Shown: one piece after another, positions 3,515 through 36,084 of the stretch
Layout of the letters: the number at the start of each line of letters is the position of its first letter
Numbering within the stretch: position 1 is the stretch's first letter
Assembly (NCBI RefSeq): GCF_031624635.1
Contig: NZ_JAMQOQ010000010.1
Location: 1-64,000, forward strand
DNA length: 64,000 nucleotides
Direction: 5' to 3'
DNA from: Halogeometricum sp. S3BR5-2
GTDB lineage: Archaea > Halobacteriota > Halobacteria > Halobacteriales > Haloferacaceae
The notes under the pieces: generated by a model
The model's input: only the letters and a program-made list of their open reading frames with translations
What the model was told of the DNA's origin: nothing
Databases searched by the model: none
Program-made: the position numbers and the translations under genes

Positions 3515-3689
3515 GTTACACATCGATGACGGGGGGTGTGGTCGAGCACGATTTACACTTCGATGACGGGACGTCAGACGCATGGCTTACACATCGATGA
3601 CGGGGGGTGTACCAGACAGGTTAGTGAAATCAGAAGCAAATCCGAACTCAGAGTAGCGAAAACCGGTTACACATCGACGACGGGGGGAT
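3515..3689 (+). repeat. ORB-like origin repeats, left cluster
   Basis: Four direct copies of a roughly 20-base unit with core TTACACATCGATGACGGGG lie at 3515-3539, 3552-3573, 3586-3610 and 3666-3689. The second (ACACTTCGATGACGGGACG) and fourth (ATCGACGACG) are variants, and a degenerate unit may lie near 3789. They occupy the gap between the divergent addB-like and orc1/cdc6 genes. An AT-rich stretch (about 3472-3500) adjoins the first copy. A T-side TTACA and a G-string are typical of haloarchaeal origin recognition boxes. The rest of the gap 3356-3800 shows no gene. Confidence 0.8.
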
Positions 3690-3839
3690 CTCCGACGATG
3701 GGCTGCTGAATAGTACTTCGTCGTCGGTTCGGAGTGGGTAAGACCGAAGACGTTGAATGTGAGGAATAGACTCGTCGTATCGCCAGGATAGACATCGACG
3801 GTGGTGAATCTTTTTATGCCTCCAGAATGCAGCAAGCGT

Positions 3840-5303
3840 ATGGCCGGTAGCGATCAGGGTGGGACGGATCAATCTACCCTTGGAGAAGAAGAAACACGTT
3901 CTCAGGCGGCAGAAACTGAAACCGACGCCGCCGAAGCGGATGCCGCCGGTAACTCCGCTTCAGCACGCGATGAAGTAGATTCCGCGGAGAACTCGCAACG
4001 CTCCATCCGCGATATGCTCGATGAGGAGGGTGGTGCGTCGGTTTTCGACAACAGAGATCTCGTCGAGCCCGATACGATCATCGACGAGGAACGGATCGTT
4101 GGTCGCGATGACCAGCTCGAGTCCGTTGTCTCGTTCCTGAAACCCACCCTGCAAGGGAATCGGCCGCCGAACATGCTGTTGTATGGTCCAGCAGGCACGG
4201 GAAAATCACTCATCGTTGGAGCTGTTACGGAGCAAATCATCGAACTCTGTAAGTCGAAGGGAGAGCGCTTCGGCGTCGTCTCGATCAATTGCCAACCGAT
4301 CAATACGCTCGACCAAGCGGTCTACGAACTCGTTCAAACCGTCGCGAAGAACGTGGGCGCAGAGGTCGGTGTTCCTGAGACAGGAGTGTCGACCAAACGC
4401 AAGTACCGTCGACTGTACGAACTCATCAACGAGAACTATGACTCGGTCATTTTCATCCTCGACGAGATTGACCTCCTGGTCGGCCGACGCGCAAATGACG
4501 AGCCGGCTTATTCGAAACTTCTCTACCAGCTCTCCCGTGCGAGCAATACGAACGAAATCGAGGGACGGGTCTCAGTTGCGGCGTTGACGAACGATCCGAA
4601 GTTCATGGAGAACATCGACGGGCGTGCAGAGAGCTCATTCAATCCACGAGACGTCTACTTCCCCGATTACGACGCCAATCAGTTGCGCCAGATTCTCAAA
4701 AATCGGCGAGACGCCTTCCGGCCTGATGCACTGGAAGATGACGTGATTCCACTGGTTGCGGCGTTCGCAGCGCAAAGCCACGGTGACGCTCGGAAGGCCA
4801 TCGATCTGTTCCGCGGTGCTGGTGATCTCGCTGACGAACGCGGGGAAGAGGAAGTTCGCGAGGAACACGTCCGTGAATCGCAGGAGGAGATCGACAAGGA
4901 CCGATCACTGAAACTCGTTGAGGGGTTGACGACCCAGAAGAAGATATCCCTGTATGCGACAGCAGCGGTCGCCCGATACTCCAGGCGGTCGGGAAGTTCA
5001 GTTCCGAGTCCAGTCGGGTTCAAAGTCTATCAGTGGGTCACGGACGAACTCGATGCCGATCAAATGACTCGAGAAACCTACGTCAAGTACGTGAAAGAGC
5101 TCTCCACGTATGGATTGATCTCGACGTCGAGGAAAAGCCGAGGACGTGGTGGTGGGATGTACATGGAGTTCACGTTCACGGGAGATCCAACAGCGATTAT
5201 GGATCGAATCGTCGAGGACACGAGGCTAGAAACCATCGGTGGCCAAGATGAGCTCCTTCAGTCGGTCGTCAATGCTCAGTTGAACGAATTCCACGAGAAG
5301 TAA
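3840..5303 (+). CDS. Orc1/Cdc6 family replication initiator
   Basis: AAA+ origin-binding initiator. Walker A GPAGTGKS lies about residues 116-123 (from ATG 3840) and Walker B ILDEIDLL about 205-212. Sensor/lid helices follow, and a C-terminal winged helix (about 390-480) would contact the ORBs. Length (487 residues) is normal for haloarchaeal Orc1/Cdc6 with an acidic Asp/Glu/Ala-rich N-terminal tail. The frame opens at 3801, but GAATCTTTTTATG at 3806-3818 looks like a TATA region about 25 bases before ATG 3840, so a near-leaderless start at 3840 is preferred. ORB-like repeats flank the gene in inverted orientation. The family loads the MCM helicase and fires the adjacent origin. Confidence 0.93.
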   Translation: MAGSDQGGTDQSTLGEEETRSQAAETETDAAEADAAGNSASARDEVDSAENSQRSIRDMLDEEGGASVFDNRDLVEPDTIIDEERIVGRDDQLESVVSFLKPTLQGNRPPNMLLYGPAGTGKSLIVGAVTEQIIELCKSKGERFGVVSINCQPINTLDQAVYELVQTVAKNVGAEVGVPETGVSTKRKYRRLYELINENYDSVIFILDEIDLLVGRRANDEPAYSKLLYQLSRASNTNEIEGRVSVAALTNDPKFMENIDGRAESSFNPRDVYFPDYDANQLRQILKNRRDAFRPDALEDDVIPLVAAFAAQSHGDARKAIDLFRGAGDLADERGEEEVREEHVRESQEEIDKDRSLKLVEGLTTQKKISLYATAAVARYSRRSGSSVPSPVGFKVYQWVTDELDADQMTRETYVKYVKELSTYGLISTSRKSRGRGGGMYMEFTFTGDPTAIMDRIVEDTRLETIGGQDELLQSVVNAQLNEFHEK

Positions 5304-5343: not shown

Positions 5344-5877
5344 CACCCCCCGTCATCGAAGTGTAACCGATTCTTTTCCCGGAGTTGCACGTTGATAGCG
5401 TTCGAATCCCCACAGAGCCAATCAAACTGGACGAGATTGTTCTCGGGTGGTCGATCCACGGAGGAACTTCGATTACGGGTAGGACGTGAACCCCCTCCCC
5501 CCGTCATCGAAGTGTAAATCCTCACCAGAGGGAGGGTACAGAGGACGAGGAGCAAGACGCGGATCGGCCAGAGAGGCCACGAGAGCCGCAGTCTCACGGG
5601 AAAGAGACACTAGAACAAACACGATGAGGAAGTTGTTCCCCGCTCGGTACGTCGGAGTTCCACTCCTCCGAACCTTCGCGGTAAGCGCTATTGCGGTTAC
5701 GGTACTGATGGGTGGTATATAAAACTTCGTCAGACTAGTGATAATCGTGGAATATGTGATAATTCTCCTGTCTCGGCGTCTCTTCGTCCTATTCGTCGCG
5801 CTTCCGGCCTCTTTCGGCTGTTCTCGTCTCTGCCCCCCTCCCGCCCTCGAGAGTTTACACATCGATGACGGGGGGGG
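5344..5877. other. Predicted replication origin: ORB-like repeats around an AT-rich segment
   Basis: Downstream of orc1/cdc6, ORB-like units lie at 5344-5367 and 5495-5518 (minus orientation, CCCCCCGTCATCGAAGTGTAA) and at 5853-5877 (plus orientation). A fourth minus unit is at 6371-6394. The only clearly AT-rich stretch here, about 5706-5775 with TATATAAAAC and several TGATAAT-like words, sits between the opposed units at 5495 and 5853. Opposed ORBs around an AT-rich unwinding element is the standard archaeal origin layout. Short open frames across 5304-5930 run through the repeats and look non-coding. Which side of orc1/cdc6 is the working origin cannot be told from sequence. Confidence 0.75.
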
Positions 5878-6370: not shown

Positions 6371-6394
6371 CACCCCCCGTCATCGAAGTGTAAG
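6371..6394 (-). repeat. Outlying ORB-like unit
   Basis: CACCCCCCGTCATCGAAGTG followed by TAAG is a full ORB-like unit in minus orientation, about 500 bases beyond the main right-hand cluster and just past the operator of the 125-residue protein. Confidence 0.65.
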
Positions 6395-12700: not shown

Positions 12701-15088
12701 TCACGGTTCCTCCGTCGTGTGGCCGTTCGTGACTGCGTCCGATCCCCCGTCAGGATCGATCTCCGGGTCGGCGTCGACGACGTCGTTGAGGTCGGCCGCG
12801 TGGACATCCTCGTGATCGGCCTCCATCGCCATCTGGAGGTCCATATCGCGGTTCATCACGTGCGGGAGGTCGGTCATCTCGAGGTCCTCGTGGAATGCCG
12901 CGTCTCTGGATGTTCCGTCACCCTCGGCGAGATCGATCCCCTCGACGCCGGCGAGCCAGTCCCACGGATCGAGCGCGTCGTCCAAGACGGTGTGCTCGAA
13001 CGGCCCGCTCCGGATTTCGAGGCGGCGCCGCCCGTGGACGCTAGTCGCCAGTAAACACTCCGAGTAGTCCGAATCCTGTCCGCGGGCTGCCGTCTGGATG
13101 AATCGAATCTCGTCGGTCGAGAAGCCGTAGTACTCTGCCGTCTGCTCCGAGACCGATTCGGCGTAGAACAGGCACTTCACGTCACAGTTCTCGTAGACCT
13201 CGCGGCGCTCGTTCGTCCGGACGAACTCGTGGGCGGTTTGGCTCATCAGCGTCAGTCCAGCCTCGTAGTGACGCGCGTGGCGGATGTACAGGTTGATCAG
13301 GTCCCGGGCAGCGGGTCGGCCCAGTAGGTAGTGGGCTTCGTCGAACGTGACATCCACCTTGTAGGGCGACTGCTTGGCCTCCAGGTAGGCCCACGAGAGC
13401 ATCGCATGGAGGATGAGCGGCATCTCGCCGGTGTCGGCGAACGAACTCATGTCCATCACGACGAGTCGTGAGGAGAGATCGAGGTTCGTCTGGCCGTTCA
13501 GGTTGTGGTTGATACCTCCCGGTTTGAACGACTCGAACTTCGGCTGGAGGCTCCGAGCGAGTTCCTGATGATGGTCGGTCGGCGTGACAATCGTATCCGA
13601 GATCGAGATTACCCCTCCGTGGAGAGGTCCCACCTCGTCGCCGAGCTCCGCCTCTTCGGCGTTCGGAACGCCGTAGGACTGGAACTGTCCGAGTTCGACT
13701 CCGTCGATGACACCCGCCTCGTGGGCGGCTTCGAGGCCGCCGGCAGCGATCACGTTGACACCGCGGATGAGGTCGTCGAGCGTGGGTGACTCCCGCCCGT
13801 AGGTGTCGAACTCGCCGAGGATGATTCCCTTCGAGATGTAGGCGTAATGGGCGGCCTGAATGAGAATGCCCTCCTCGCCGGCGGACATGCCGTCACGCTG
13901 GTCGAAGTGAGTGTGGAGCATCTCGATGACCGACCGAATCGTCAGCGCGTAGGTGTCGTCGCCGTTCTCCTGTTCGGCATCCGCCGGCGGCGAGATGTCC
14001 ATCGGATTGACGGTGTAGTTCCCGCCGAAGCGGATCACTTCGCCGCCGAGGGACTGTGCGAACCGCGGGTAGTCGTCACCCGCCGGGTCAAACAGGATGC
14101 ACTGGACGTTCGGGTCTGCGAGCAGTCGCCGGTAGATCTCCAGCTTCCGGAAGTAGCTCTTTCCCGACCCCGTCTTCCCCGAGATCGCCATCGAGTGGCC
14201 CGACAGCGCGTAGCGGTCGAGGATCACAGGCCGCTTCGTATCGTCGAACCCGAACAGGACGCCCTCGGGGTCGTAGATGGAGGGTTCGACGAGGTTGAAG
14301 AACGTCCCCAGCGCCTCGAGCTGAATCGGGTGCGTGTTGTCGATGGTGTCGCTCGCTAGTGGGGCGACCGATCCAATGGCCTCGAGTTGCTGGTGTTTCA
14401 CCGGGCTGAGGTCGACGTCCTGTTCGGCGAGGATGGCCTCCACCCGGTCGAGCATCTCGTCGAGGCCCTCCTGCGTGTCGGCGACCAGTTCGAGGTAAAT
14501 CGCGACATCGTAGAGCTTGGTCGTCCCGCGGATGGTGTTCCGCAGGAGCCGTTCGAGGTCCTGCCGTTCGAGTTCGTCCTGGTAGGTGTCGGTACGGCCG
14601 CGTTTCTGTTTGACCGACAGCGAGGTGACGGCCTGCGTGTAGCGCTTCTGGAGCTGGCGACGGACGTCTTTCGCGGCCCGCGGCTGGACGTGGAGCGACA
14701 GCCGCAGATCGACATCCGATAGGGTCAGCGGCACCAGCCAACCGAGGCCCACCTTCCGGGGGAACGAGGTCACCGTGAGAACCTGCGAGATGCGGTCGTC
14801 ACGGACCTGGAACTTCGGGTAGTCCTGGACGACTCGGGGAGCGATGAGCCGCTTGTCGAGCTCGCCGCGCTCTTTCAGGGTTTCCATCGGGGTGGCGAGG
14901 TCGACGTCGTCAGCTTGGAGCTGGTACGCCGCCCACTCGATGTTCTCGGTGGTGGTCTCGCGGTCGAGCAGCGCGAGGTAGTCCAGCGCGTGGCGCGTCT
15001 CATCGCCCGAGAGTTCGTCGATCGGACGCCGCTCGACCGACTCCTCTGTTGTCTCGTTACTGAACGCCTGGGTGAATCGTTTGATCAT
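12701..15088 (-). CDS. virB4: VirB4-type conjugation ATPase
   Basis: 795 residues. Walker A SGKTGSGKSYF about 302-312, Walker B VDVTFDEAHYLL about 577-588, then IRHARHYEAGLTLMSQ, the conserved segment that follows Walker B in the VirB4/TraC/HerA superfamily. The N-terminal 270 residues match the VirB4 N-terminal domain. VirB4 energises pilus assembly and substrate passage at the cytoplasmic face. The start codon overlaps the stop of a 23-residue ORF (ATGA). It lies in the minus-strand operon directly after the VirB4-N-like membrane protein. The C-terminal tail of about 100 residues is acidic and rich in Asp/Met/His. Confidence 0.88.
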   Translation of the reverse strand: MIKRFTQAFSNETTEESVERRPIDELSGDETRHALDYLALLDRETTTENIEWAAYQLQADDVDLATPMETLKERGELDKRLIAPRVVQDYPKFQVRDDRISQVLTVTSFPRKVGLGWLVPLTLSDVDLRLSLHVQPRAAKDVRRQLQKRYTQAVTSLSVKQKRGRTDTYQDELERQDLERLLRNTIRGTTKLYDVAIYLELVADTQEGLDEMLDRVEAILAEQDVDLSPVKHQQLEAIGSVAPLASDTIDNTHPIQLEALGTFFNLVEPSIYDPEGVLFGFDDTKRPVILDRYALSGHSMAISGKTGSGKSYFRKLEIYRRLLADPNVQCILFDPAGDDYPRFAQSLGGEVIRFGGNYTVNPMDISPPADAEQENGDDTYALTIRSVIEMLHTHFDQRDGMSAGEEGILIQAAHYAYISKGIILGEFDTYGRESPTLDDLIRGVNVIAAGGLEAAHEAGVIDGVELGQFQSYGVPNAEEAELGDEVGPLHGGVISISDTIVTPTDHHQELARSLQPKFESFKPGGINHNLNGQTNLDLSSRLVVMDMSSFADTGEMPLILHAMLSWAYLEAKQSPYKVDVTFDEAHYLLGRPAARDLINLYIRHARHYEAGLTLMSQTAHEFVRTNERREVYENCDVKCLFYAESVSEQTAEYYGFSTDEIRFIQTAARGQDSDYSECLLATSVHGRRRLEIRSGPFEHTVLDDALDPWDWLAGVEGIDLAEGDGTSRDAAFHEDLEMTDLPHVMNRDMDLQMAMEADHEDVHAADLNDVVDADPEIDPDGGSDAVTNGHTTEEP

Positions 15089-17840: not shown

Positions 17841-17931
17841 TGTTTATTTCAAGAATGCGTAACGCGTAACACTGCGTCGGGCGCACGGTTGCGTCAGCCG
17901 CAAACCTGCGATTTCCGCATTCTGAGCGAAC
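17841..17931. promoter_or_regulatory. Two-block palindromic element between the T4SS operon and pilin-like gene
   Basis: Block A TGTTTATTTCAAGAATGCGT followed by AA (17841-17862), an 18-base gap, then block B GCGCACGGTTGCGTC (17881-17895). A degenerate inverted copy of A, TGCGATTTCCGCATTCTGAG, lies at 17907-17926 and faces the plus-strand gene. The same two blocks with the same 18-base gap occur inverted at 27430-27484. The element lies in the divergent gap between 17669 and 17970 and probably controls both transcripts. The rest of the gap 17670-17840 shows no further gene. Confidence 0.65.
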
Positions 17932-27238: not shown

Positions 27239-27429
27239 CGCGAGCACTCCCCGGGGTTGTTCGTCGTCCCAGATGTGTCTGGTCGTGTCATGGCGGTCAC
27301 TATCGGTCGGCTACAAGTCGGGACCGCAACTACTTGCTCGTCTCTATGCGAGAGGGTAACAAGCATAACTGTTTCCCTCAACCCCACATAGAACCCACCA
27401 AACACTGATATACGCGCACCTGTGCGTCC

Positions 27430-27484
27430 GACGCAACCGTGCGCGAGGCGTAAGATTGCGACTTACGCATTCTTGAAACAAACA
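27430..27484. promoter_or_regulatory. Inverted copy of the two-block element upstream of pilin-like gene 3
   Basis: GACGCAACCGTGCGC (27430-27444), an 18-base gap, then TTACGCATTCTTGAAACAAA ending CA (27463-27484): the reverse complement of blocks B and A at 17841-17895, with block B identical (15 of 15), block A 21 of 22 and equal spacing. Block A ends 30 bases before the ATG at 27515, where an archaeal promoter is expected. The remainder of the gap 27248-27514 shows nothing else. Confidence 0.65.
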
Positions 27485-27514: not shown

Positions 27515-27919
27515 ATGACGAGCACTATGACCGACTCCGACCTCGACATGTACCGCCGCCGGCTTCGTCGGCTTCGCCGCGCCCTCGACTTCGAGACCGT
27601 CTTCATCACGGCATTCCTGTCGCTACTGGTGTTCGTCGGTCCTGCCGCCGCTCAGGCTAGTGGCCCTACGGGTGGGGGTGGCGGCTCGGTCGCCGGCTGG
27701 GAAACCATCCTCACCAACCTGTACGACGTCGTCTACACGACGCTCCAGTACGCCGGTCTGACCGTGCTAGTGCTCGGACTCATCGTTTGGCTCACCGCAC
27801 GTCGGAATTCCCAGCGATCCGAGACTGGGATGAAACTCACGATGGGCGGTGGCGCGATGGTGATCGCCTACTTCGGGCTCGGAGCGCTCGTCTCCCTGCT
27901 CGAGTTCATCGCCGGGTGA
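27515..27919 (+). CDS. Pilin-like (VirB2-like) protein with signal-like leader, paralogue 3
   Basis: 134 residues. A basic N-terminus (YRRRLRRLRRAL) precedes a hydrophobic leader ending in PAAAQAS, a plausible signal-peptidase site, then a Gly-rich stretch (GPTGGGGGS). Two spans follow, VLVLGLIVWLTARRN and MGGGAMVIAYFGLGALVSLLEFIAG, with a basic hairpin. This is the VirB2 layout: cleaved leader and two spans. It is paralogous to the proteins at 17970 and 26467. A start at 27527 is also possible. The upstream element shared with the T4SS operon suggests joint control. Confidence 0.72.
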   Translation: MTSTMTDSDLDMYRRRLRRLRRALDFETVFITAFLSLLVFVGPAAAQASGPTGGGGGSVAGWETILTNLYDVVYTTLQYAGLTVLVLGLIVWLTARRNSQRSETGMKLTMGGGAMVIAYFGLGALVSLLEFIAG

Positions 27920-27980
27920 TCGTTCCGCGGCGTAGTCCCCGCATTTGGTACCCAAGGACAACAGTCCGATTACCATCCAA

Positions 27981-28075
27981 CCCCCCATCATCGAAGTGTA
28001 AACGGCGTTCGACCCACCCCCCGTCGTCGGAGTGTAAACCCCGTCCGATCACACCCCCCGTCATCGATGTGTAAC
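27981..28075 (-). repeat. Second ORB-like repeat cluster
   Basis: Three minus-oriented units, CCCCCCATCATCGAAGTGTA (from 27981), CACCCCCCGTCGTCGGAGTG (from 28015) and ACACCCCCCGTCATCGATGT (from 28051), spaced 36-37 bases. They are the same unit as the repeats flanking orc1/cdc6 24 kb away. No initiator gene adjoins them; they lie 200 bases before the coupling-protein gene. The rest of the gap 27920-28281 contains no gene. Confidence 0.78.
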
Positions 28076-28281
28076 TCGTGTCCGAGGGCCACTTGGTCGC
28101 CCGCTATCCTCGCCGATGGTGAGCGCAAGGCAACCGGACGCGACCCACGCCTCGACGGGCTTCATTCGTCTCGAGCCATGTACCCCATTCACGCCAACCA
28201 GTCGTATTGTCCGTCGAGCCATCGATCTGCCCTTCTTGGGTGCTGGTCGTCTCGCCGCTCACCGACAGGAGACCGGACTCG

Positions 28282-31200
28282 ATGACCGGTCGCTCAACCA
28301 GTGACCGGCCGGGTGCGAGTGAATCATCTCGCGACCCGCGGTTCCCGAGCATCGACGAGGCTGATATTCAGCGAGCGCTTTCGACACGGCTCGGTGGCGA
28401 ACCCTCCGACGATACAGAGCCGCGGGCGGGACAGCCCGAGGAAGATTCACACCAGGGGCCCGAGACGGACAACGCCGATGAACCGGCCTATCCAGAGGGG
28501 CCGTCAGAGTCGGAGGAACACCCAGGAGACAACTCGGACGGTGAGGGTCCACGTCCGTACATCAAGATCACCCCTGCTCGTGAACAGGTCACTCCAGACC
28601 ACGTCATCAAAGGACTCTATGGACTCTACCGCGCGGGAAGTGGCCGCACACTCCCGTTCCATGTCGAGCGACGCCTCTCGTTCGTGAGTACGCACCACTC
28701 CTTCGAATTCCTGATCCACAAGCCGGAGGCCACACAGCGGTTCGACTTCTATCTCGGCGTTCATCCCTACGAGGTCGAGGCAGTCGAACATCTCGCTGCG
28801 AACGTCCGGGCGATGTATCCCGAACGCTTCCGCTTCGAGATCGTCCCCTTCGCGACCAGTGCTGTGTTCGTCGACGACGCCGAGCCCGATCGAGCTACCC
28901 TCGCCGATCTCGAGTCGTTCGAGGGACTAGATGAGCTCGCGAATCTGGAGGGATTTGACCCGGGACTCTTGGATGGTGCGAACGATCCAGACGCGCGAGT
29001 TTCCGGTCCCGATGACGGCGATGATCCGACACCTCCGGCGATGGTTCGCTGGGGCGGCGTCGAGACGAAGAACAACGACTGGATGACGTTGCTCTCGCAG
29101 TTCAGCGAAGTATCCGTCGACATCGAGGAGGCGTTCCGCTCGCCGCTGAGTGTCCTGCTCGAACAGGCCACCGAGACGAACGAGCCGTTCCTGTTCCAGG
29201 CGGTGTTCACTCCCCGGCGCGACTGGACGAAAGAGGCGGAGGCCCACAAGCGAAACCTGAAGATGGGCACGACGGGGATGTGGAGTGCGTTCAGGCAGGA
29301 AGCGGGCGCGATGCTGTTCGGCACCTCCGAAGAGGAACGTCGACAGCGTCACCGTCCCGACACGCCCGAGCAAATCGGTGGAACCCTCTCGGGCGGCGGT
29401 GACGGCCCTTCGACCCGGCATAGCCGGATGGGGCAGATCGATCTGAAACAGCCGACCGTCACGTTCGACCTCTCGTTGCGGGCTGGTGGCGAGCCCAGCG
29501 TCATCAACGGTGTGACGGGCGCATTCACTGCCCTTAGCGGACCATACTATGGCGTCGAGGGGGAGGCCGTCGATGCGGTGGATCGCGAGTTCGAGGACCT
29601 CTGTGGCGCACGTCTCGGCCGGACAGGGATCCGCGAGCGTTTCGGAAACACCAATCCGATTATCGTCACCAGCCCCGACGAACTCGCCAACTTCGTGACT
29701 GTCCCGAATACGGGGGCCCTTCCGAAGGCCAGTCGTGGCGCGTCCGGCGGGTCTCCCGACGCCCGGTCACCGCTCACCGCGACGGACGAGGAACTGCTCG
29801 CGAAGTTCGACACCGGAATGTGTATCGGGGAGGCCGAGACCGCCACGCCGGACCGGCCGAACATTCCAATCAGTCTGACTGCCGAGCAGCTCACCCACCA
29901 CGTTCTCCGGGCATCGACGACGGGGAGCGGGAAGACGACCGCGATGGTCAACGACGGGTTGAGTGCCTACGAGGAGCTCAATGGACCGATCTTCATTTTC
30001 GACAAGAAGGGCGGTAGTATGGCGACGGAGTACAAGCGAGCGCACTTCCGCCGATTCGGCGATCTCGACGAGGTGATCCATCTCCCGGTACCGGGCCCGA
30101 ACGGTGAGCTTCCAGCCTTCCCGTTCTTCGACATCCGACCGCAGGTGGCGGCCGGGATGAGCCGCGAGGCGGCGGTCCAGGAGAAGGTCGACCGCTACAA
30201 CGAACTTCTCGAGTACGTCCTCGGCGAGGAACAGCACAACCAGGCGTTCGTCGCTCAGGAAATCCTCTCGAATCTCATCGTCGCTCTCTTCGACCCGGTG
30301 TACGGGGACGAGGCCTTCGCGATCAGCGACCTGCTCGGGGCGGCCACGCGGATGCAGACCGAACAGGTCATTCCGGACGTGAGCGACCCCGAGCTTCACG
30401 CCACACTCAGGCGGCACTTCAGCGGGGACGAACGTCGTTTTGCCACCTCTATCGATGCGGTACTGAACCGGATTACCAAGCTCAAAGAGCGGGACTTCAT
30501 CTGGCGGATGCTCAATTTCGCCCCCGAGTGGGACGACGACACTCGCCAGTATGCCGACGAGCAGATGTTACTCGACCTGGATCGGCTACTGGACTCGTCG
30601 AAGGTCATCCTCGTCGATACGGGCGAGTTCCGTCCGGCCTCGAGCAACGTCTTCACCGTGTTGATGCTGGATTACCTCTGGTCGTGGGTCCGGCTTCGCG
30701 AGCGCTGGAACAGGGGGGTTCCCGACCCCGACGAGGGGTACTGCGTGAACCTGATCATCGATGAGGCGGCGCCGATCATGCAGGCGAGCCTGGTTCGCGA
30801 TGAGATGATTCCCGATGCTCGCGAGTTCGCCCTCGCGTTCGAACTGATCGTTCACTTCCCCGAACAGGTGAAACGCGACGCACTGGATACGCGAGCCTAC
30901 AAGGAGATTCTCCGGAACATCAACACCAAGCTGATCGGGAAACTCGCCATCGACGACGAGCTCGCGACGACGCTGTTCCACGAGGAACTCGACGCGATCG
31001 AACTGTCGAACCGGATCGCCTCCCTCCCCCGGGGTGAGTGGCTGGCCCAACTCCCGGACACCGGATTCATGACCGACACGCCAGAGCTGGTGACGCTCAA
31101 GCCGCTCCCGATTCCGTCGGGACACAGCGACGGCGAGGAACCGATCGACGCCGGGACATACAGCCCTGACGCGGGGACGACCTACCAAGAGGCGGATGAA

Positions 31201-32400
31201 CTCCAGTGGTCGCGAACCCGGTTCAGCTACTGTCTCGTGCCGGGCGTGAACAGCCCGCCGGACGCCGCACAGCGAGCCGCGCGATACGGAACTGGACCGT
31301 TGAACAGTGAGGCTATCCGTTCGGAATCTCCGTCGGATTCGTCGACGATCCCGCCGACGGCCAACTCCTCTCATTCAGATCGTGAGAGGTCCTCGAATAC
31401 GACCGAGCGGGATTCAGAACCCGATTCGACGATATCCGGAGACGACTCTGCGGACCGCCGTGATGACTCCTCCAACGAGGGTCGAGCGGATGGTCAGGTC
31501 GGTGGTGCCTCGAACGAGTTTGGCACCGTTCTTGGAACCGGGAGCGCCCCACGCGGTCCATCTCCGGCTGCATCCGATTCGACTGCCGGGATTTCCGATG
31601 ACTCCGCTGCAGGTCCCCCGACAGACGATGGCCGTGCCGCTGCGGATGCGTCCTCGGGGAGTCCCCCGGCCAATGGAGAATCATATTCGCTGACTCCAGC
31701 AGAGCAACAGTTTCTCCGAGACGTCATCGCAGGAATCAACGGGGAACTGGAGGGGTACGACCTCACCCAGTCGATGACGACGATCCGGAACGGTGTCGAC
31801 GGCGAGATCGACGAGGACCGGCTCGTCGAGATGGGCCACCTCGAACTCCAGTCGGTCAACACGCGGAAGTACTACTATGTCACTCCGGCAGGGCAGGACG
31901 CGGTCGATCGGACGATCTATTCGGGCCGCAACGACGGTGACCCGTTCGAGAAGACCGTCCACAAGGTGTACGTCGAGTACACCGCTCGCCACCTCCGAAA
32001 TCAGGGCTTGCTGGTGGAGACGTACTACGAGCCGATGGCCGGCGGGATGATCTTCGATGTCGCTGCGTTCCTCCCGGGCGACGGTGACGGGCGGACGCTG
32101 GCGGTTATCGCCGAGGTGGTGACGAACATCCGTCCCGACCTGATGATCAAACACTACGACGACCTCGCGAGCTTCGACGGCGTCCGGAAGATGTGGGTGG
32201 TGCCTCACACCGACGTTGCGCACGAAATTATCAGAGTTCTGGCCGATGATGGACGGCTTCAGACGGTGCCACATCGAGACATCGAGAACTATACACGTCT
32301 CTCCGAGCAGGCATTCGAGAATCCCCGAGAGTGGCGGTTCGTCGGGGGGCGGAATCTCGTCCGAATGGTTGACCGGACGGACGGGGAGGTCGACCGGTGA
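28282..32400 (+). CDS. Giant VirD4/TraG-type coupling ATPase with C-terminal winged helix and nuclease-like region
   Basis: 1372 residues from ATG 28282. Walker A TTGSGKTTAM about 546-555 and Walker B LIIDEAAPIM about 823-832 identify a VirD4/TraG/HerA-type motor, which feeds DNA to the T4SS. The N-terminal 500 residues form an all-haloarchaeal domain without clear membrane spans. A disordered Ser/Thr/Asp linker (about 1010-1135) leads to a winged helix (about 1140-1210) and a final region with FDVAAFLPG and LAVIAEVVTN (about 1250-1300), recalling the D...E core of PD-(D/E)XK nucleases but without the lysine. It opens the plus-strand block containing PrimPol and RPA. Confidence 0.82.
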   Translation: MTGRSTSDRPGASESSRDPRFPSIDEADIQRALSTRLGGEPSDDTEPRAGQPEEDSHQGPETDNADEPAYPEGPSESEEHPGDNSDGEGPRPYIKITPAREQVTPDHVIKGLYGLYRAGSGRTLPFHVERRLSFVSTHHSFEFLIHKPEATQRFDFYLGVHPYEVEAVEHLAANVRAMYPERFRFEIVPFATSAVFVDDAEPDRATLADLESFEGLDELANLEGFDPGLLDGANDPDARVSGPDDGDDPTPPAMVRWGGVETKNNDWMTLLSQFSEVSVDIEEAFRSPLSVLLEQATETNEPFLFQAVFTPRRDWTKEAEAHKRNLKMGTTGMWSAFRQEAGAMLFGTSEEERRQRHRPDTPEQIGGTLSGGGDGPSTRHSRMGQIDLKQPTVTFDLSLRAGGEPSVINGVTGAFTALSGPYYGVEGEAVDAVDREFEDLCGARLGRTGIRERFGNTNPIIVTSPDELANFVTVPNTGALPKASRGASGGSPDARSPLTATDEELLAKFDTGMCIGEAETATPDRPNIPISLTAEQLTHHVLRASTTGSGKTTAMVNDGLSAYEELNGPIFIFDKKGGSMATEYKRAHFRRFGDLDEVIHLPVPGPNGELPAFPFFDIRPQVAAGMSREAAVQEKVDRYNELLEYVLGEEQHNQAFVAQEILSNLIVALFDPVYGDEAFAISDLLGAATRMQTEQVIPDVSDPELHATLRRHFSGDERRFATSIDAVLNRITKLKERDFIWRMLNFAPEWDDDTRQYADEQMLLDLDRLLDSSKVILVDTGEFRPASSNVFTVLMLDYLWSWVRLRERWNRGVPDPDEGYCVNLIIDEAAPIMQASLVRDEMIPDAREFALAFELIVHFPEQVKRDALDTRAYKEILRNINTKLIGKLAIDDELATTLFHEELDAIELSNRIASLPRGEWLAQLPDTGFMTDTPELVTLKPLPIPSGHSDGEEPIDAGTYSPDAGTTYQEADELQWSRTRFSYCLVPGVNSPPDAAQRAARYGTGPLNSEAIRSESPSDSSTIPPTANSSHSDRERSSNTTERDSEPDSTISGDDSADRRDDSSNEGRADGQVGGASNEFGTVLGTGSAPRGPSPAASDSTAGISDDSAAGPPTDDGRAAADASSGSPPANGESYSLTPAEQQFLRDVIAGINGELEGYDLTQSMTTIRNGVDGEIDEDRLVEMGHLELQSVNTRKYYYVTPAGQDAVDRTIYSGRNDGDPFEKTVHKVYVEYTARHLRNQGLLVETYYEPMAGGMIFDVAAFLPGDGDGRTLAVIAEVVTNIRPDLMIKHYDDLASFDGVRKMWVVPHTDVAHEIIRVLADDGRLQTVPHRDIENYTRLSEQAFENPREWRFVGGRNLVRMVDRTDGEVDR

Positions 32401-32668: not shown

Positions 32669-34366
32669 ATGAGTAGCGATATCGACGTCAGTCTGATTCC
32701 CGAGAGGTTAGCCGATCTTGAGCAGTGGATCTGCTGGCAAGAGACAGAACGTGACGGGAAAGCGACGAAAGTTCCGATCAAGCCCTACCATACCAACGGC
32801 ACGCCGAACGCCAGCGCGACAGAGGCCGGCCACTGGCGAGACCTAGAGAGCGCACTCGCGTTTCACGAGAGTGACCGCGTCCGGACCGACGGGATCGGCT
32901 TCGTGTTCGCGCCCGCGACGCCCATCGTCGGTGTGGATTTGGATGACTGCCGGGATTCCACAACGGGCGAACTCGCATCGTGGGCCCTGGACATCGTCGA
33001 CCGGCTGGATTCCTACAGCGAGGTGTCGCCCTCGGGGCGGGGCGTTCACGTCATCGTTGAGGGCGAACTCCCGCCCGGCCGGAATCGGCGCGGTGACGTC
33101 GAGATGTATGACGAGGCTCGCTTTTTCACCGTCACGACCGACCACATCGAGGGGACACCCACGTCCCTCGAGCGACGGCAGGATGCGCTGCTCGGTGTCC
33201 ACTACGAGTACGTCCAGTCACCCTCCGATGGGGAGACGGCGCCGGTCGATCTCGAGGCGGCCGCCGAGGATACCCGTCGTTCCGACTCGTCAGCGGACGA
33301 GCGCGGACTGCAGGCTGGCGAGCCGGCAGCTGGAAAGGAAGCCGACGAGACGGAGACCTCGGAGACAGCCACGGCACTCGGATCGGACTCGGGACTGTAC
33401 GCCCGCTACGGACTGGACTACCCGGATATCGAAGACCCCGGTCTCGAGGCCGCCCTGCACGGACTGAGTCCGTCGGCGCTTCCCTCACCGCTGCCGACCT
33501 CGATGGACGACATCGCGGGCCCGGGTGTGGATCTCGACGACGAAACGGTACTGGAGCGTGCGATGGACTCGAAGAGTGGTGATGTCATCGAGGCGCTCTA
33601 CGACGGCCGCTCGGAACTCTGGAGCGGGCGGGATAGCCGGTATCCCTCGCAGTCGGAGGCCGATATGGGCCTGTGCTTCTATCTGGCGTTCTGGACTGGC
33701 GGCGATCCCGACCGGATAGATCGTCTGTTCCGCGATTCAGGGCTCATGCGAGGGAAGTGGGAAAAGGTTCACTTCGCCAACGGGGCGACCTATGGCACGG
33801 TTTGTATCGCCCGGACGCTCCTGACCGTCGACGACTACTACACGCCACCGTCAAAGTCCCCATCGTCCTCATCGAACGACAGCCGCCGGCCATCAGGCGA
33901 AGCCGGCACCTCTCCTGAGTCGGCCCACAACCCTGAGCCGGCACCAATCGACGCCGGGGCGGTCGAGGACGCCCGGCGGCTGGCCGCGAAGGTCCAGCGC
34001 CAGCAGCGCGAACTGGACGCGAAGCGCGAGCGAATCGCGGAACTCGAAGCTCGGCTTCGACAGTACCGGGCCGTACTCGGAATCGACCAGCCCGACGATA
34101 GCGCTCGTTCGAGGGAAGACGGGGTCGTCGACGCTGTTGCAGGAAACGGGGATCAGGGTGATTCCCGATCCTGGAACGAGAGGTCTATCGGACACGTTGT
34201 CAAGGGGTCCTCCGGGGCAGTCTCGAACGGACAGGGGAACAGCGAATGCGAGCCGACATCCACCGACGGAAACGAGGACACTCGTGATGCCGATGCGGAG
34301 TCATCCGGACCAGACACGAGATCTTCTACCGGGTTGTCTCGTCGGCTTCGTCGATGGTTTTCCTGA
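32669..34366 (+). CDS. PrimPol-like protein (NrS-1 polymerase family)
   Basis: 565 residues. An archaeo-eukaryotic primase fold occupies about 1-180: LEQWICWQ at the start, VGVDLDDC (about 89-96, catalytic Asp pair), SPSGRGVHVIVEG (about 120-132, His motif) and EMYDEARFFTVT (about 145-156). A helical domain at about 305-375 with the pattern SEADMGLCFYLAFWTGGDPDRIDRLFRDSG is the one that follows AEP domains in NrS-1-type polymerases. A coiled coil lies about 425-470. It could prime the transferred strand or plasmid replication. The 268-base gap before it shows no gene. Confidence 0.82.
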   Translation: MSSDIDVSLIPERLADLEQWICWQETERDGKATKVPIKPYHTNGTPNASATEAGHWRDLESALAFHESDRVRTDGIGFVFAPATPIVGVDLDDCRDSTTGELASWALDIVDRLDSYSEVSPSGRGVHVIVEGELPPGRNRRGDVEMYDEARFFTVTTDHIEGTPTSLERRQDALLGVHYEYVQSPSDGETAPVDLEAAAEDTRRSDSSADERGLQAGEPAAGKEADETETSETATALGSDSGLYARYGLDYPDIEDPGLEAALHGLSPSALPSPLPTSMDDIAGPGVDLDDETVLERAMDSKSGDVIEALYDGRSELWSGRDSRYPSQSEADMGLCFYLAFWTGGDPDRIDRLFRDSGLMRGKWEKVHFANGATYGTVCIARTLLTVDDYYTPPSKSPSSSSNDSRRPSGEAGTSPESAHNPEPAPIDAGAVEDARRLAAKVQRQQRELDAKRERIAELEARLRQYRAVLGIDQPDDSARSREDGVVDAVAGNGDQGDSRSWNERSIGHVVKGSSGAVSNGQGNSECEPTSTDGNEDTRDADAESSGPDTRSSTGLSRRLRRWFS

Positions 34367-34533
34367 CGCACCCGGTTGTACCGAGACCGCAGCCGTGGCT
34401 GTTCCAGCCCTTCCGTCTGTATTTATCCTCCTGAAGGGGGTGAGGAGATCGCGAGAGCGGGCGACGTGTCCGTTGTCCTGACGACGACTGGCTGCAACAG
34501 CGAGCCGCACTCGTGAATCCTCGGAGTTTCGAA

Positions 34534-36084
34534 ATGTCCAGTGCAACCACTCTCGACCTGCAAGACCGTGTACAGACCATCACCGACGCGTTCGTCGCCT
34601 TCGACGAGGACCGAACCGAACCCGCGTTCGCCCTCGACACCGAGGACGTGACCGCCCAGCTGGAGCGCCTGTGTGCCTACCGAGTCCCGATGGACGAGGC
34701 CGTCCGGACGCTTGTTCGCAAGGCATGTGGCGACGCCGACCTCGAGCGAGCCGATCTCTCGGATGACATCGCCCGGCTAGCTGGCTACAGTGGGCGCTCC
34801 CGCGGATTCTCGCGAACGATGTTCGCCGACGTCGACGAGGCCGACCAGTGGATCGACGTCGTCGCCGAGGTCGTCGAACTCTGGGAGCCCCGGAGCGAGA
34901 AGATCGCCCAGGTCGGGCTGCTCGGCGACGAGTCCGGCCGCCTCAAGTTCGTCAAGTGGGCGAGTGCCGACCTCCCCGAACTGGAGGAGGGCGAGGCCTA
35001 CCGCTTCGAGAGCGTCGTGACCGACGAGTACCAGGGCCGGTTCTCGGTGAGCTGTAACTCCGCGACGGCGATCAGTCCTTCCGACGATGTCGTCGCGGCA
35101 AGCGACGGGAGCGTCGCGGTCGTCGGAAGCATCATCGACATCCAGGAAGGTTCGGGCCTGATCAAGCGATGCGGGGCCGACGACTGCACGCGCGTCCTCC
35201 GGAACGGCCGGTGTGCGGAGCACGGACAGCGCGACGGCGAGTTCGACCTCCGCATCAAGGCGATCCTCGACGACGGCAAGCGATCGCTGAGTGCCCTGTT
35301 CGACGCCGCTGCCACCGAAACGGTGACCGGCATCTCGCTGAGTGATGCGACTGACATGGCGATGGACGCACTCTCGACGGACGTGGTCGCCGAGGAGATC
35401 AGCGCGCAGCTGCTCGGTCGGCGGTATCGGCTGACCGGGAGCGTCGTTGGGACGTACTTCCTGGTGAACGATTCCGAGGATACGACCGACGCCCCGGATG
35501 GGTTCGACACCGACGCGATTGAGCCGGCGCTCACGGCCCGCCAGCCGGCTCGGCGGCTGTTCGCCGAGGAACTCAACGGGACCACGGAGACGTTCCAGGA
35601 GTCCGACGAGGAGCGGGCGCCTGTTTACGGCCTGACCCCGACCGGCGTGGACGTCAACCGCGTGTTCGTCGTCGGGACCCTTGCAGAAACCGCCGACATC
35701 GGCTCCGACGCCGAGTACTGGCAGGGCAAGGTGTTCGCTGCTGACTCGCCCGTGTACGTGTACGCCGGGCAATACCAGCCCGAGGCGATGGGGGTGCTGC
35801 GAGCAGCGGTGCCGCCGGCGTACGTCGCGGTCGTCGGGAAGCTGCGGACCTACGAGCGGGGTGACCGGACGAACGTGGCCATCGAACCGGAGTCAATCAC
35901 CGAGGTCGACGAGGCGACCCGAGACGCGTGGGTCGCCGAGACGGCCAGCCAGACCCGTGAGCGGCTCGAGGCATTCGAAACCGGCGACACCCCGTTCAGC
36001 GAGGAGGCGACGGAGGCCTACGGCGAGGACGTGAGTGGGGTCGAAGCGGCGGTTGCGGCTGTCGCTCTGGAAGACGTCGCCTGA
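34534..36084 (+). CDS. RPA large subunit fused to RPA-associated (RPAP) domain
   Basis: 516 residues from ATG 34534. OB-fold regions at about 105-190 (IAQVGLLGDESGRLKFVKWA) and about 195-300 include a zinc site CGADDC...C.EHG (about 213-230), as in archaeal RPA. The C-terminal part (about 375-495: VFVVGTLAETADIGSDAEYWQGKVF, VYVYAGQYQPEAM, PAYVAVVGKLRTYERG, ...TRDAWVAETASQTRERLEAF) matches the RPA-associated protein (COG3390), normally a separate gene. It would bind single-stranded DNA during transfer and replication. Confidence 0.82.
   Translation: MSSATTLDLQDRVQTITDAFVAFDEDRTEPAFALDTEDVTAQLERLCAYRVPMDEAVRTLVRKACGDADLERADLSDDIARLAGYSGRSRGFSRTMFADVDEADQWIDVVAEVVELWEPRSEKIAQVGLLGDESGRLKFVKWASADLPELEEGEAYRFESVVTDEYQGRFSVSCNSATAISPSDDVVAASDGSVAVVGSIIDIQEGSGLIKRCGADDCTRVLRNGRCAEHGQRDGEFDLRIKAILDDGKRSLSALFDAAATETVTGISLSDATDMAMDALSTDVVAEEISAQLLGRRYRLTGSVVGTYFLVNDSEDTTDAPDGFDTDAIEPALTARQPARRLFAEELNGTTETFQESDEERAPVYGLTPTGVDVNRVFVVGTLAETADIGSDAEYWQGKVFAADSPVYVYAGQYQPEAMGVLRAAVPPAYVAVVGKLRTYERGDRTNVAIEPESITEVDEATRDAWVAETASQTRERLEAFETGDTPFSEEATEAYGEDVSGVEAAVAAVALEDVA

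Follow-up and report, generated by a model that had tools for sequence, protein, structure and literature searches.

Why would a haloarchaeal replicon hold three ORB units far from its orc1/cdc6 gene, directly before genes of quite another kind? The question arose for a 74,286-bp contig of Halogeometricum sp. S3BR5-2, of which the first 64,000 nucleotides form the stretch that was analysed (the window). A sequence-only reading of this DNA had offered a second origin, an origin tied to transfer, and a titration or control site as possible answers.

Results

The units of the remote array are 21 bp long, have the form CCCCCCRTCRTCGNNGTGTAA and stand head to tail at 27981-28001 (CCCCCCATCATCGAAGTGTAA; matrix score 38.1), 28017-28037 (CCCCCCGTCGTCGGAGTGTAA; 34.2) and 28054-28074 (CCCCCCGTCATCGATGTGTAA; 45.1), all on the plus strand, so that the 36/37-bp spacing noticed by the sequence-only reading is correct. 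Every unit starts with the C-run CCCCCC, which is the terminal G-string of the haloarchaeal ORB on the opposite strand. A search of the whole 4.66-Mb genome for CCCCCCRTCRTCGNNGTGTAA with up to two mismatches found 11 copies, every one on this contig, and the reversed pattern, used as the control, found 0 copies in the same 4.66 Mb. The weight matrix was trained on 41 distinct orc1-adjacent units taken from other genomes only. These score 30.8-46.3, a range that includes all three remote units; on the 74-kb contig the next best site reaches 8.5, and the reversed contig sequence has no site above 4. The confinement of the 11 copies to this contig, the empty control and the matrix scores within the training range place the triplet well beyond chance. 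On sequence criteria, it consists of genuine ORBs that belong to the replicon's own Orc1 type.

The presumed source of the binding protein is the orc1/cdc6 gene at 3801-5303 on the plus strand, recognised by its Cdc6 domains in Pfam. Its end lies 22.7 kb from the array, which indeed has no adjacent initiator, and the remote unit is, as had been proposed, the same one that flanks orc1/cdc6. Four copies (3516, 3553, 3587 and 3667) form a direct array upstream of the gene at 3516-3687 on the minus strand, and four lie downstream, at 5346-5366 and 6373-6393 on the plus strand and as an inverted pair (5497+/5855-) with an AT-rich 60-mer between its members, near 5705. In haloarchaea, the marks of an origin are inverted ORBs that enclose an AT-rich element and adjoin an orc gene (PMC3528665). 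Two inverted ORBs separated by about 356 bp, with an AT-rich peak between them, are also present in Haloplanus, Natrinema, Haloarcula, Haloarchaeobius and Haloferax relatives, and their spacing downstream of orc1 is near-constant in several genera; the pair and AT-rich peak at 5497-5875 are probably the origin of this Orc1 family. Orc type and ORB type are linked in specificity in haloarchaea (PMC3528665), and relatives with approximately 82-99% identical Orc1 bear the same ORB unit beside orc1.

The orc1-upstream units are direct repeats, as in the remote array. By blastn, 27980-28075 aligns to the reverse of 3515-3608 (79%), and one spacer (ACCCCGTCCGAYCACACCCCCC) is almost the same in the remote array and in the orc1-upstream array of Haloplanus sp. 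GX21, where the sequence between two units (ACCCCGTCCGACCACACCCCCC) is one base different from the remote spacer. Since the direct architecture and the spacer sequence are common to both, the remote triplet is probably a copy of the orc1-upstream array, in an orientation relative to the downstream gene that is opposite to that of its likely source.

Directly upstream of the remote array is a virB2-like pilin gene (27515-27919, plus strand), identified by synteny with TrbC/VirB2-family genes in related loci, the product having no Pfam match of its own. Downstream are three co-directional genes, all on the plus strand, that encode a HerA-like ATPase of 1372 amino acids (28282-32400; Walker A GSGKT, Walker B-like LIIDEA), a PrimPol-type protein with an NrS-1 polymerase HBD domain (32669-34366) and an RPA-like (replication factor A) protein (34513-36084); the array lies in the leader of this run. 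The ATPase had been read as a VirD4-like coupling protein encoded approximately 200 bases after the array, and the distance holds, the start codon at 28282 being 207 bp past the array end, but the VirD4 identity is doubtful. DUF87 (HerA) was found in 4 of 10 homologues of the ATPase, its single PDB profile match is a DNA helicase, and the best Foldseek matches of its model are DndH-C and HerA, although the model is of low confidence (mean pLDDT 54.9, despite which the modelled fragment has values of 70-90 around residues 300-490). VirD4 gave no match in the PDB profile, homologue-domain or Foldseek comparisons. In the searches made, the ATPase resembles HerA more closely than VirD4, and its coupling-protein role is only putative. 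The PrimPol gene, described as lying shortly after the array, starts 4.6 kb downstream.

The same contig encodes a VirB4-like ATPase (12701-15088). A 70-bp element occurs in two inverted copies, 77% identical, at 27415-27484 before the virB2-like gene and at 17841-17910 before the minus-strand VirB4-like operon, and is probably a promoter/operator shared by the virB2-like and VirB4-like sides. An inverted operator, GCGTAAG-N7-CTTACGC, was also considered before the virB2-like gene; its symmetry is complete in this plasmid and a single relative, and it was rejected as a conserved palindrome. The 207 bp that separate the array from the ATPase start codon contain no clearly recognisable promoter. 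The likelier promoter is the probable one that precedes the virB2-like gene and coincides with the repeat common to the VirB4 operon, and the array may for this reason sit inside a transcript. A TFIIB-type factor, a PCNA-like clamp and an RNase H-domain protein are also encoded on the contig (51240-52271, 55040-55960 and 59771-60751), and together with the PrimPol and RPA-like proteins they make up a large replication/transcription set for a plasmid. On this contig, and also in two plasmids without the ORB array, cumulative GC skew reaches its minimum near the HerA-like ATPase gene.

The triplet occupies the same virB2-like/HerA-like intergenic region in plasmids of Haloplanus sp. GX21, Halorarius halobius and Haloplanus rubicundus, in which Orc1 is 97-99% and the ATPase 94-97% identical. 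Its distance from orc1 is 16.9 kb in GX21, 22.7 kb here, 22.9 kb in H. rubicundus and 78 kb in H. halobius, and because this distance varies while the downstream gene stays the same, the array travels with the ATPase gene. In GX21 (NZ_CP147875.1, 3571-5128), the virB2-like/triplet region is duplicated, with two identical triplets; the second copy adjoins an ATPase ORF of reduced length, and IS6 transposases are encoded nearby.

Whole-genome protein searches used a 410-amino acid part of the ATPase as the query. Plasmids of Halosimplex, Natrinema and Haloarcula (ATPase 74-75% and Orc1 85% identical) have these ORBs beside orc1 only, and such array-less relatives hold 7-8 ORB sites against 11 on this contig. 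In the homologous intergenic region, direct repeats did not exceed the shuffled expectation at 14 divergent loci, and none were seen on reading at the G113 locus (ATPase 80% identical over the fragment searched). Alignment of the 28075-28281 region with array-less relatives was not significant, and IMG/VR contained no loci matching the ATPase or the tandem ORB pattern. Conservation of the position beside coupling-protein genes, named beforehand as a check, is therefore found in one clade of very similar plasmids and not in 15 divergent homologous loci, and the idea that ORB arrays generally accompany this ATPase gene was rejected. Tandem ORB pairs were also scanned for in 391 Halobacteria genomes and in GTDB r220 contigs, and in every other assignable case pairs of this type lie beside orc1; two cases were counted as continuations of orc1-side arrays, namely a pair at the G134 contig's far end, so assigned because the two ends of that contig have identical sequence, and a locus truncated ahead of orc1. 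The array was probably gained once, in this plasmid clade, which is the simplest account of the distribution, loss elsewhere being the alternative.

Across the four array-bearing replicons, which are closely related, the 63 nucleotide positions of the units show 0 substitutions and 1 C-run indel, and 39 of the 299 other intergenic positions are variable (Fisher p 0.0004 when substitutions alone are counted and 0.003 with all changes; 6 of 362 in a circular shift test of units against flanks). The remote units appear to be under selection since they are less variable than their flanks, and four such close sequences make this moderate evidence.

Discussion

Could the remote array be a second origin at which the same Orc1 starts replication? 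Its ORBs are genuine, and the contig has a cumulative GC-skew minimum near 31.7 kb. Yet the minimum also falls near the ATPase gene in two plasmids without the array, and GC skew was dropped as origin evidence. The three units all point the same way, and the matrix scan of the contig found no inverted partner near them. The 60-bp AT maximum is 0.53 in the array's intergenic region, roughly the 95th percentile for the window, and 0.65 beside orc1, and the 60-bp AT scan found no AT-rich unwinding element in that region; nor does the array adjoin an orc/cdc6 gene. With direct orientation, no AT-rich element and the conserved origin architecture located downstream of orc1 instead, the second origin that had been suggested is the least probable of the readings considered here. 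Very unlikely too is a role in transfer, in which Orc1 would act at or near an origin of transfer and coordinate replication with export or import. The array does lie between the virB2-like and HerA-like ATPase genes of a replicon with a VirB4-like gene. Nothing specific speaks for this suggestion, however: the intergenic region has no local inverted repeat, the 15 divergent homologous plasmid loci do without the array, no relaxase or oriT was identified, and mobility typing classes these plasmids as non-mobilizable.

The remaining suggestion, a titration or control site, fares better, the units being genuine direct ORBs that are conserved above their flanks and lack both an unwinding element and an inverted partner. 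If the triplet were a passive, functionless leftover from duplication of the orc1-upstream array, this would explain the common spacer, which shows copying, and the confinement of the triplet to four close replicons of one clade; with units that vary less than their flanks and that all score within the functional range, we consider this unlikely. Pure titration or handcuffing, in which capture or pairing of Orc1 by the array limits initiation at the orc1-side origin while the neighbouring genes are unaffected, is a possibility of more substance, if a doubtful one. It has a precedent in the oriC2D cluster of Haloarcula hispanica, a Cdc6E-titrating region that has no origin activity and lowers the activity of oriC2 in a manner dependent on the number of ORBs (PMC3936714); the remote array likewise has no origin architecture, its units are conserved, and it supplies 3 of the 11 ORB sites on the contig. 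On the other side, oriC2D adjoins its cdc6 gene and has 11 ORBs, and the 7-8 sites already held by array-less relatives mean that the added capacity would be modest. Titration also needs no special place, yet the array is found precisely where a run of replication/transfer genes has its leader. Because of that position, and because the array probably descends from one in the orc1 leader, we lean slightly towards regulation over titration.

Our tentative preference, short of an even chance, is that the triplet is an off-origin, Orc1-binding control array that may regulate the downstream HerA-PrimPol-RPA genes. The leader of the ATPase/PrimPol/RPA-like run contains three own-type ORBs in direct repetition; by sequence comparison, they would have arisen in one plasmid clade, copied from the direct array upstream of orc1, and their conservation suggests that Orc1 binding at the array is under selection. 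Bound Orc1 would then modulate expression of the HerA-PrimPol-RPA genes in step with its own level or state, the initiator acting as a transcription factor, and the array would also sequester some of it. Initiators are known in this role: the Saccharolobus protein Orc1-2 is a promoter-binding activator of genes for DNA exchange (PMC10470591), and DnaA is a transcription factor too (PMC8203912). One argument against regulation is that homologous loci where the ATPase is 74-80% identical and the Orc1 type is the same have no array; another is that the promoter search between array and ATPase gene gave no clear candidate. The wider proposal, that an Orc1/Cdc6-family plasmid initiator doubles as regulator of the HerA-PrimPol-RPA genes through an array derived from its own upstream region, and so couples initiation to transfer or priming, is one we hold with greater reserve.

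If Orc1 does bind and act at the array, an archaeal plasmid initiator would control a distant operon, or remote ORBs would control copy number. The question is directly testable, and the two plasmid clades that have the same Orc1 type, one with and one without the array, provide a natural comparison.

How does the array compare with known systems? It belongs to the same G-string ORB class, with Orc-type-specific sequence, as the haloarchaeal origins adjacent to Orc/Cdc6 genes, but differs from them in having no adjacent orc, inverted ORBs or AT-rich element (PMC3528665). Initiator-binding repeats away from the origin are reminiscent of E. coli datA, as far as its description in the oriC2D report goes (PMC3936714), and of iteron handcuffing, in which such repeats pair origins (PMC4857107); both are bacterial, with unrelated initiators, and serve as analogies only. 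Like the Saccharolobus Orc1-2 regulon, the array places Orc-family sites, here predicted ones, upstream of DNA-exchange genes, whereas that regulon is chromosomal and induced by DNA damage, and regulation by the remote array is a proposal (PMC10470591). The array also resembles oriC2D, likewise a haloarchaeal ORB cluster outside the origin proper and without origin architecture, the homologue of which in Halorubrum lacusprofundi has, like the remote array, three ORBs only (PMC3936714). Unlike oriC2D, which lies directly downstream of cdc6E, the three ORBs here precede other genes. Off-origin haloarchaeal ORB clusters are known, and what is unusual in this plasmid is that the cluster lies far from orc and before another run of replication/transfer genes.
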